The position numbers were made by a program, and so were the translations under genes. From Oxalobacter formigenes (GTDB lineage Bacteria; Pseudomonadota; Gammaproteobacteria; Burkholderiales; Burkholderiaceae_D), in assembly GCA_023667225.1 (NCBI GenBank), contig JAMPAN010000001.1, forward strand, positions 245,024 to 309,023: a stretch of 64,000 nucleotides of DNA. The letters run 5' to 3'. The notes below the pieces were generated by a model. The model worked only from the letters and a program-made list of their open reading frames with translations, was not told where the DNA came from and did not search any database. This document shows positions 29,288-47,502 of this stretch, in pieces (within the stretch, counting starts at the first letter, position 1; each line of letters begins with the position of its first letter).

Positions 29288-30748
29288 ATGCCTGATACGG
29301 AAAACCGGCGGCTGGCTACGGCACGCCGCATTCTTCTGACGCCGAACGGCCTGGATGACGCCAGGTTGATCCAGACGCTGGGAACGGTGTTTACCCGCCA
29401 GGTGGATTATGCGGATTTGTATTTCCAGTTTACCAGAAACGAGAGCTGGAGCCTGGATGAGGGGATTGTCAAGACAGGCAGTTTTTCCATTGACCAGGGT
29501 GTTGGCGTCAGGGCGGTTTCCGGCGACAGGACGGCTTTTTCCTATTCGGACGAGATTTCCCTGCCTGCGCTTCTTTCGGCTGCCGAAACGACGCGTTCTA
29601 TTGCCCGGCAGGGAGGGAGCGGCGTAAAAGCGGCGTCATCCCTTCGCAGGGTGAGCGGCCATGATTTGTATCGGGATATTGACCCGATGCCATCAATCAG
29701 CGCTGCCCAGAAGGTGGCAATCCTTGAGCGGGTGGATAAGAAAGCGAGGGCGGCTGATCCCCGGATTGTGCAGGTGATGGCCGGGCTGGCCAGTGAATAT
29801 GATGTGGTGCTGGTGGTGCGGAGCGACGGCGTGCTTGCGGCGGATATCCGGCCGCTGGTCCTCCTCTCTGTGACGGTGATTGCCGAACAGGATGGCCGCC
29901 GCGAGATGGGCTCAAGCGGCGGAGGCGGACGTTATGATTACGGCTATTTTACTGACGTCCAGGTTGACCAGTATATTGACGAGGCAGTGCATACGGCACT
30001 GGTGAATCTGGATGCCCGCCCGGCCCCGGCGGGAACCATGACGGTGGTTGTTGGGCCGGGCTGGCCGGGGGTGCTGCTGCATGAGGCGGTGGGGCATGGC
30101 CTGGAGGGCGATTTCAACCGGAAAGGCTCCAGTGCATTTTCCGGCATGCTGGGAGAGCAGGTGGCTGCCAGGGGGATTACGGTGGTGGATGACGGTACGA
30201 TTGCCAACCGGCGGGGATCGCTCAATATGGATGATGAGGGCACACCGACAGAAAATACGGTGCTGATTGAAGACGGGGTGTTAAAGGGCTATCTCCAGGA
30301 CAGCCTGAATGCGCGGCTGATGAATATGCCGCTTACCGGAAACGCCCGCAGGGAATCTTATGCGCATTTGCCGATGCCCCGGATGACCAATACGCTTATG
30401 CTGGGCGGCAGGCATGAGCCCGGCGAAATTATTGAATCGGTCAGGCACGGTATTTATGCGGTCAATTTCGGCGGCGGCCAGGTGGATATTACGAACGGCA
30501 AATTTGTTTTTTCGGCCAGCGAGGCTTATCTGGTGGAAAACGGACGGATTGTCCATCCGGTGGTCGGGGCGACGCTGATCGGGAATGGCCCGGATATTTT
30601 GCGCCGTGTTTCCATGGTGGGCAACGATATGTGCCTGGATGCCGGGGTAGGTGTGTGCGGAAAGGATGGGCAAAGCGTGCCGGTCGGCGTGGGGCAGCCT
30701 ACGCTTCGGATTGAGGAGGTGACGGTGGGGGGAACCGGCCGGACGTAA
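29288..30748 (+). CDS. tldD: metalloprotease TldD
   Basis: A 486-residue zinc protease subunit. The HExxxH motif is at residues 265-270 ([16 protein letters not shown]), and a C-terminal cysteine region follows ([23 protein letters not shown]). TldD pairs with TldE (PmbA) to degrade unfolded peptides, and in some bacteria to process modified peptides such as microcins. No pmbA gene is seen nearby. The start has AGGA ten bases upstream. glnE-yhdP-nit-tldD is a familiar beta-proteobacterial arrangement. Confidence 0.95.
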
Positions 30749-30787
30749 TGGCAAATGGCCGGCATATCCCCTGAAAATGCGTTATAC

Positions 30788-30793
30788 TATAAT
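30788..30793 (+). promoter_or_regulatory. candidate -10 box of the aroG leader transcript
   Basis: A perfect TATAAT lies 17 bp before the first ATG of the leader peptide, which puts the transcript start near 30800. No clear -35 box is seen at normal spacing. Confidence 0.4.
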
Positions 30794-30810
30794 TGAATAA
30801 TGATTCAGCC

Positions 30811-30906
30811 ATGATGTTAACGATGCTGCGTTCTGCCTGCTTTTTCTTTTTTTACTTTAGCTATTCCAGCCCGTTGGCGGTGGAAGAGCGGTTGTTGTCA
30901 CGATAA
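30811..30906 (+). CDS. Phe/Tyr-rich leader peptide of the aroG attenuator
   Basis: A 31-codon open frame whose codons 11-18 read Phe-Phe-Phe-Phe-Tyr-Phe-Ser-Tyr (30841-30864): five Phe and two Tyr codons in eight. It ends at TAA 30904-30906. This resembles the E. coli pheL leader peptide, where a ribosome stalled on Phe codons prevents termination. It lies between a TATAAT box and a terminator, directly upstream of the DAHP synthase gene. No good ribosome-binding site precedes the ATG at 30811; an internal ATG at 30823 is an alternative. The peptide itself need have no function. Confidence 0.72.
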   Translation: MMLTMLRSACFFFFYFSYSSPLAVEERLLSR

Positions 30907-30954
30907 GAAAAACAGACCGATTTTCAGCAAACCGCCAGCGATGGCGGTTTTTTT
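30875..30954 (+). terminator. attenuator: terminator with competing antiterminator
   Basis: The terminator stem is AACCGCCA/TGGCGGTT (30930-30937 with 30942-30949, loop GCGA) followed by seven T residues (30948-30954). An upstream TGGCGGT (30875-30881), inside the leader reading frame, is identical to the 3' terminator arm and can pair with ACCGCCA (30931-30937) instead. A ribosome stalled at the Phe/Tyr codons would leave 30875-30881 free to form this antiterminator. A ribosome reaching the stop codon would cover or pass it. Confidence 0.75.
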
Positions 30955-30977
30955 GTTTTTGAAAAAGGATACGGAAA

Positions 30978-32054
30978 ATGTTGCACAACACGGATGACTT
31001 ACGAATTCTTGCCATGAAGGAATTGACGCCGGCTTCCCACCTGATTCGCGAATTTCCCTGTACGGAAAGGGTTGCCAGGACGGTGGCGGATTGCCGGACG
31101 GCGCTGCATCGTATTTTGCACCGGAAGGATGACCGCCTGATTGTTATTATCGGTCCCTGTTCTATCCATGACCCGCAGGCAGCGCTGGAATATGCCTACC
31201 GTTTGAAGGAGGTCCGCGAGCGGCTGAACAAGCAGCTGGAGATTGTGATGCGGGTTTATTTTGAAAAGCCCCGCACGACGGTCGGCTGGAAGGGGTTGAT
31301 CAATGATCCCCATATGGATCACAGTTTCGAGATTAACGAGGGGCTGCATATGGCCAGGGAGCTGCTTTTGAATATCAATGACCTGGGGGTGCCGGCGGCA
31401 ACCGAGTTTCTGGATACGATCAGCCCGCAGTATGTGGCTGATATGATCAGCTGGGGAGCGATCGGCGCACGGACGACAGAATCGCAGGTACACCGGGAAT
31501 TGTCTTCCGGATTGTCTTGCCCGGTGGGGTTCAAGAACGGGACGGACGGCAATATCAAGATTGCGATTGATGCGATCAAGGCGGCTTCCCATCCCCACCA
31601 TTTCCTCTCGGTGACCAAGGGGGGGCATACCGCTATTTTCTCGACTTCGGGCAATGACGACTGCCATATTATTCTGCGTGGCGGAACCCGCCCGAATTAT
31701 GACCGGAGCAGTGTTGAGGCAGCCTGCCGGGAAGTGGCCGAGGCCGGGTTGCCGCCGCGTATCATGATTGACGCTTCCCACGGCAACAGCTCGAAAAAGG
31801 CGGAAAACCAGGTGCCGGTTTGCGCAACGATTGGCCGGAGTGTTGCAGCAGGCGATGTGCGGATTATCGGGGTGATGGTGGAATCGCATCTTGTTGCCGG
31901 GCGGCAGGATATTGTGCCGGGACAGCCGCTGACTTACGGCCAGTCGGTAACTGATGCCTGCATTGGCTGGGATGACAGCGTAATGATTCTGGAGCGGCTT
32001 GCGGAAGCTTCGGCAAAACGCCAGGAAAAAGTACGGTACAGTAACGGGGACTGA
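30978..32054 (+). CDS. aroG: 3-deoxy-7-phosphoheptulonate synthase, class I AroG/AroF type
   Basis: A 358-residue enzyme condensing PEP and erythrose-4-phosphate, the entry step of aromatic amino acid synthesis. It closely resembles E. coli AroG throughout: DDLRI at the N-terminus, IIGPCSIHDP, MRVYFEKPRTTVGWKGLIND, SWGAIGARTTESQVHRELSS, GFKNGTDGNIKIA and IIGVMVESHLV. Which aromatic amino acid inhibits the enzyme cannot be read safely. The Phe/Tyr leader suggests expression responds to both. It converges on the HAD gene 19 bp away. Confidence 0.95.
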   Translation: MLHNTDDLRILAMKELTPASHLIREFPCTERVARTVADCRTALHRILHRKDDRLIVIIGPCSIHDPQAALEYAYRLKEVRERLNKQLEIVMRVYFEKPRTTVGWKGLINDPHMDHSFEINEGLHMARELLLNINDLGVPAATEFLDTISPQYVADMISWGAIGARTTESQVHRELSSGLSCPVGFKNGTDGNIKIAIDAIKAASHPHHFLSVTKGGHTAIFSTSGNDDCHIILRGGTRPNYDRSSVEAACREVAEAGLPPRIMIDASHGNSSKKAENQVPVCATIGRSVAAGDVRIIGVMVESHLVAGRQDIVPGQPLTYGQSVTDACIGWDDSVMILERLAEASAKRQEKVRYSNGD

Positions 32055-47168: not shown

Positions 47169-47490
47169 AAAGCAGGCCAGACAGCCGCCGGTCATGAAGG
47201 TGACGGGAGGAAGGTCCGGACACCGCAGGGCAGGGTGGCGGCTAACAGCCGTCCGCTGAAAGCCGCAAGGTATAAGGCGAGGAACAGGGCCACAGAGACG
47301 AGCGTATTCGGTTACGGTGAAACGCGGTAACCTCCACCTGGTGCAATTCCAAATAGGCACGCAATGAGGCGGCCCGCGGAGCGTGCGGGTAGGAAGCTTG
47401 AGCGCCGGAGTAATCCGGCGCCTAGATGAATGGCTGTCATAGCAGAGGTTTTGCCTCTGCCGTAACAGAATCCGGCCTATCGGCCTGCTT
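47169..47490 (+). ncRNA. rnpB: RNase P RNA, bacterial type A
   Basis: The catalytic RNA that trims tRNA 5' leaders. The ends pair as P1 (AGCAGGCC 47171-47178 with GGCCTGCT 47482-47489). Conserved cores are recognisable: CCAGACAGCCGCC at the 5' end, GGGAGGAAGGTCCGGACACC, GGGCAGGGTG, ACAGAGACGAGCG, AACCTCCACCTGGTGCAA, CAAATAGGC, and the 3' P4 strand CCTAGATGAATGGCTGTC followed by ACAGAATCCGGCCTATCGG. At about 320 nt it is shorter than the 377-nt E. coli RNA. It lies between clsB and the dcw cluster. Confidence 0.96.
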
Positions 47491-47502
47491 TTTTCCAACC
47501 GG

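Follow-up and report, generated by a model that had tools for sequence, protein, structure and literature searches.

The DNA analysed here, a stretch of 64,000 nucleotides from Oxalobacter formigenes referred to as the window, carries on its forward strand the gene aroG (30978..32054), which encodes a class I DAHP synthase of 358 residues (NCBIfam NF006723, 579 bits for a cut-off of 568 bits), the enzyme of the first step of aromatic amino acid synthesis. A Shine-Dalgarno sequence, AAGGA, was recognised by eye in front of it at 30965-30969. The gene upstream, tldD, runs in the same direction up to 30748, and a short open reading frame rich in aromatic codons adjoins aroG on the 5' side. According to profile searches, this AroG is the sole DAHP synthase found in the genome: no class II DAHP synthase was found there, and a second match to PF00793 was rejected as a DAHP synthase, being kdsA, located between pyrG and eno. 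Searches of the genome for TrpR (PF01371) and for the TyrR-type helix-turn-helix domain (TIGR04381) gave no match while the E. coli controls were positive, a missing match not being equivalent to the lack of a repressor. Elsewhere in the window, bacterial class A RNase P RNA (47169-47495) is the sole Rfam match at gathering level. A stretch of 54 or more uninterrupted T bases (G000:C11:244870-244923) lies about 100 bases to the left of the window, where it may reflect an assembly artefact or the joining of contigs.

Anatomy of the aroG leader

The leader peptide frame (30811..30906, forward strand) comprises 31 codons, MMLTMLRSACFFFFYFSYSSPLAVEERLLSR, with Phe-Phe-Phe-Phe-Tyr-Phe-Ser-Tyr at codons 11-18 (30841..30864), as was confirmed by re-reading the sequence for a frame and a run that a previous sequence-only reading had described. 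Seven of these eight residues are aromatic, the leader contains Phe and Tyr codons with no Trp codon, the aromatic run is kept in relatives, and the peptide continues for about 13 residues after it. Three start codons are candidates (30811, 30814 and 30823); the ATG at 30823 gives a peptide of 27 residues whose length and position fit those of relatives better (MLNFAYFYFFYF...), which suggests that translation starts there. No clear Shine-Dalgarno sequence was seen 5' of the leader frame. The hexamer TATACT (30783..30788, forward strand), kept in relatives in sequence and position, is the probable -10 element of the leader promoter; a consensus promoter scan did not report it. The corresponding region reads AAAATGCGTTATACT in relatives L003-L005 and TTGTCA-17 nt-TACAAT in L009.

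To compare this arrangement with chance expectation, dinucleotide-shuffled windows were used, in which short frames with at least 7 aromatic residues in 8 occurred at 0.017 per 64 kb, in no case with a terminator behind them. The real window holds exactly one aromatic-dense short frame with a terminator, that of aroG, a combination far above chance, which is thereby excluded as its origin. A pattern search with inspection of the same genome yielded no other leader with a Phe/Tyr run and a strong terminator.

The intrinsic terminator, for which the sequence-only reading had given 30930-30954, is a stem-loop of 9 bp at 30929..30950 on the forward strand (arms 3 and 4), with a T tract behind it that extends to about 30959. 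Upstream of it, the 5' arm of the antiterminator, or arm 2 (CGUUGGCGGU, 30872..30881, forward strand), includes TGGCGGT (30875-30881), a copy of the 3' terminator arm complementary to ACCGCCA at 30931-30937. This pairing had also been pointed out from the letters alone and was found as described; the helix can be extended to 10 bp with 30931-30940. In the window, the duplex energy of the antiterminator is -17.6 kcal/mol vs -14.2 kcal/mol for the terminator. Equilibrium folding of the window leader with a ribosome set on the codons of 30841-30858 predicts the antiterminator with a probability of 0.86-0.99, and the terminator with a probability of 1.0 once the ribosome is at codon 30862 or beyond. 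In most relatives the terminator is favoured at equilibrium, stalled ribosome included, and the folding energy of the full leader is ordinary (z = -0.83 vs shuffles); full-leader equilibrium folding was consequently discarded as proof, being uninformative. Since plain folding energy is not unusual, the support for the element comes from conservation and geometry and not from stability.

A possible hairpin between arms 1 and 2 (UUCCA...UGGAA, 30864..30885, forward strand, -7.8 kcal/mol) can also be drawn in the window, where it might sequester arm 2 in the absence of a stalled ribosome. Stems of this type are similarly placed in relatives with a stability no better than that of shuffles, and the hairpin was not retained as a conserved element.

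Conservation and spread among relatives

Comparison with the aroG leaders of related genomes, the check that the sequence-only reading had proposed, revealed conserved aromatic runs, antiterminator arm and terminator 5' of aroG across many families. Within the genus, aroG occurs in all 13 genomes and the leader in 12 of them. It is absent from G010 (same genus) and from G113 (same family), where an aroG whose protein is about 75% identical stands without leader or terminator (L007 and L186); both are apparent leader losses and could show replacement control. The leader is also found in Paraburkholderia, Ralstonia, Cupriavidus, Mycetohabitans, Derxia and Paracandidimonas (for example MSAKFYFYFFWHLTPLADREGQL), and a related form with YWYF occurs in Devosia and Bradyrhizobium. 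A covariance model (R1) built from 34 leaders matches 112 of the 399 genomes examined from the order, in 65 of 159 genera. Among 89 inspected matches of the order, the window being one, 86 have aroG just downstream together with an aromatic-rich frame, weaker in L156 and L177, and the remaining 3 are ordinary sequence. In a sample of the phylum the model matches 56 of 399 genomes; 15 of 20 inspected stretches from other classes precede aroG and 2 are pheA leaders, the spread reaching some gamma- and alphaproteobacteria. Weak matches without aroG (L182, L184, L185, L228, L230 and L231) were rejected as ordinary terminators or chance. Thirty genomes without a model match were inspected as well, with AroG in 19 and an aromatic frame with terminator in none. 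The leader element is widespread but patchy. YWYF-type cores with GCCGCC terminators were noted in the aroG leaders L056-L063, L075, L081 (Devosia), L091 and L216-L226 (alphaproteobacteria); the Devosia leaders have GGCAG in place of GGCGG as their second arm, which pairs weakly with arm 3.

The peptide cores vary widely within one type of composition. The 144 leaders display 104 distinct ten-residue cores, of which 99 contain both F and Y (51 with F, Y and W; 48 with F and Y only), and F, Y and W are swapped freely between cores while the peptide stays aromatic. At the codon level, synonymous TTT/TTC and TAT/TAC changes are seen in relatives, and in 19 distinct AKFYFYF leaders the changes in aromatic codons are almost only synonymous. 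These data bear on whether the nascent peptide itself might arrest the ribosome on sensing a free aromatic amino acid instead of uncharged tRNA, as TnaC does with tryptophan. The strong conservation of the aromatic run and the residues that follow it in the window would suit such an arrest. However, arrest peptides keep particular residues at set places, whereas here F, Y and W replace one another freely between cores and both the tail and the position of the stop vary (quartiles of 20-32 nt from arm 2 to the leader stop codon), so that arrest by the peptide is considered highly improbable.

Compensatory changes occur in the terminator across 34 leaders, with 98.2% of cells paired. The pair of arms 2 and 3 lying beside GGCGG/CCGCC is T-A in 63 leaders, C-G in 23 and crossed in 13 (5 and 8), a co-variation with a Fisher p of 2e-11 when kinship is ignored; leaders with C-G belong to several families. 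The match between arms 2 and 3 averages -13.5 vs -8.9 kcal/mol in shuffles, with p <= 0.05 in 83 of 131 leaders. These direct duplex and co-variation tests superseded an earlier measure of antitermination, the mean pairing of arm 3 (0.57 vs 0.42 in shuffles, a modest excess). Counting antiterminator pairs in alignment A1 gave a weak result beyond conservation, 3 to 328 of 500 shuffles reaching the observed value according to the measure used, and the signal came from the wider leader set. The distance from the first base of the last aromatic codon to the start of arm 2 is narrowly distributed (median 12 nt, quartiles 10-14), a fixed spacing which the ribosome footprint demands, and that from the terminator to aroG is variable (quartiles 40-95).

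Two further explanations can be weighed with these results. The small frame could encode a functional microprotein and the terminator could serve tldD, with any control of aroG incidental, a proposal that suits the co-directional tldD, which finishes at 30748, and the hydrophobic peptide. Against it, aroG and the arrangement are kept together throughout the order, even in leaders whose peptide tails lack similarity; co-variation links arm 2 to the terminator, and the peptides were matched by no protein family, leaving this proposal with hardly any probability. Alternatively, a regulatory protein or a small molecule could bind the leader RNA and control the terminator, the frame being a mere vehicle. 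A terminator with an antiterminator would suit any such switch, but no Rfam family reaches its gathering score at the window site or in 20 relatives, and conservation is confined to the codons and arms with no separate aptamer-like domain; this explanation is given almost no weight either. The anatomy, position and conservation of the leader and the co-variation of arms 2 and 3 are established.

Proposed control of aroG by aromatic amino acid supply

The leader brings together codons for products of the pathway, a terminator before the gene and, after the control codons, an antiterminator arm that excludes the terminator, features by which an attenuator is recognised. Taken together with the conserved runs and arms 5' of aroG, they support the attenuation of aroG put forward by the sequence-only reading, and the element is, with high confidence, a ribosome-mediated transcription attenuator. 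Because this arrangement is shared by many related bacteria, it is almost certainly an aroG switch that is on when aromatic amino acids are short.

In the mechanism proposed, RNA polymerase would start at about 30795 and a ribosome would begin the aromatic-rich leader. When charged tRNA-Phe, and probably tRNA-Tyr as well, is scarce, the ribosome would stall within 30841-30858 and leave arm 2 (30872-30881) free to pair with the emerging arm 3 (30931-30940), so that the terminator would not form and aroG would be transcribed. With an ample supply of aromatic amino acids, the ribosome would proceed over arm 2, arm 3 would pair with arm 4 and transcription would stop at about 30958. The choice would be set during transcription, before arm 4 is made. 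Indeed, the equilibrium preference for the terminator in most relatives implies that antitermination must depend on the order of folding during transcription. As judged from its codons, the window leader would sense both Phe and Tyr.

The label of a Phe/Tyr attenuator holds for the window and is too narrow for the family, for which "aromatic" fits better, many relatives adding Trp codons. Codons for each of Phe, Tyr and Trp are found 13 nt or more before arm 2 in 58 of 119 leaders, and this zone holds 64 of 65 Trp codons. There is about an even chance that these leaders form a widespread proteobacterial family, each leader responding to the supply of Phe, Tyr and Trp alike, so that a shortage of any of them would open the shared pathway. 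If so, the window leader would be a Phe/Tyr form, other species of the genus having Trp. The element offers a concrete control, open to testing, for the first step of aromatic synthesis in a bacterium where the repressors of E. coli were not found, and across a large group of hosts with Burkholderia, Ralstonia, Cupriavidus and Oxalobacter among them. With more than 100 distinct leaders, it would also provide an unusually well-sampled natural series relating mixed control codons to a response to several amino acids.

Comparison with known leaders

The attenuation mechanism is classic. The trp operon leader (trpL) has the same four-arm logic and a similar spacing between control codons and arm 2; unlike the aroG leader, it reads Trp only and belongs to the trp operon, and its Rfam model (RF00513, Trp_leader) scores 16.2 bits on the window for a gathering score of 41. 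The gammaproteobacterial pheA leader (RF01859, Phe_leader) resembles the aroG leader in its Phe-rich peptide, antiterminator and terminator, and differs in its gene and in the mixed aromatic codons of the aroG leader. RF01859 matches the window over its full length at 31.9 bits, below its gathering score of 55, which no aroG leader reached among the 20 relatives scanned, while two true pheA leaders also recovered by model R1 (L223 and L225) score 79 and 80.5 bits. The leader peptides match no Pfam or NCBIfam model. The proteobacterial aroG leader is not covered by Rfam (at its thresholds), Pfam or NCBIfam, and the family libraries used in annotating RNAs and proteins lack it. No paper describing the betaproteobacterial aroG leader was found in the freely readable literature, and older subscription papers may hold an earlier prediction.

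The DAHP synthase attenuator as a kind is already known. In Acholeplasma, the uORFC-13-1 motif is a predicted leader with Phe codons before a terminator and aroF (PMC8632094); it comes from another phylum, has 24 representatives with at least one Phe codon and differs in sequence. The contrast drawn by the sequence-only reading with enterics, where repressors mainly control DAHP synthase genes, is apt but incomplete, such an attenuator being known outside enterics in Corynebacterium glutamicum. There, a leader peptide with Phe-Tyr-Phe (aroR) is reported to attenuate the DAHP synthase gene aroF (PMC4046766; PMC11802643 citing Neshat et al. 2014), and Phe mattered while Tyr did not (PMC11802643 citing Neshat 2014). 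Both systems place an aromatic leader 5' of a DAHP synthase gene under ribosome-mediated attenuation, a likeness of logic only: aroR-aroF belongs to an actinobacterium, serves one of two DAHP synthases and has a short run, whereas the aroG leader has a long run, occurs in proteobacteria and in many relatives includes Trp too.
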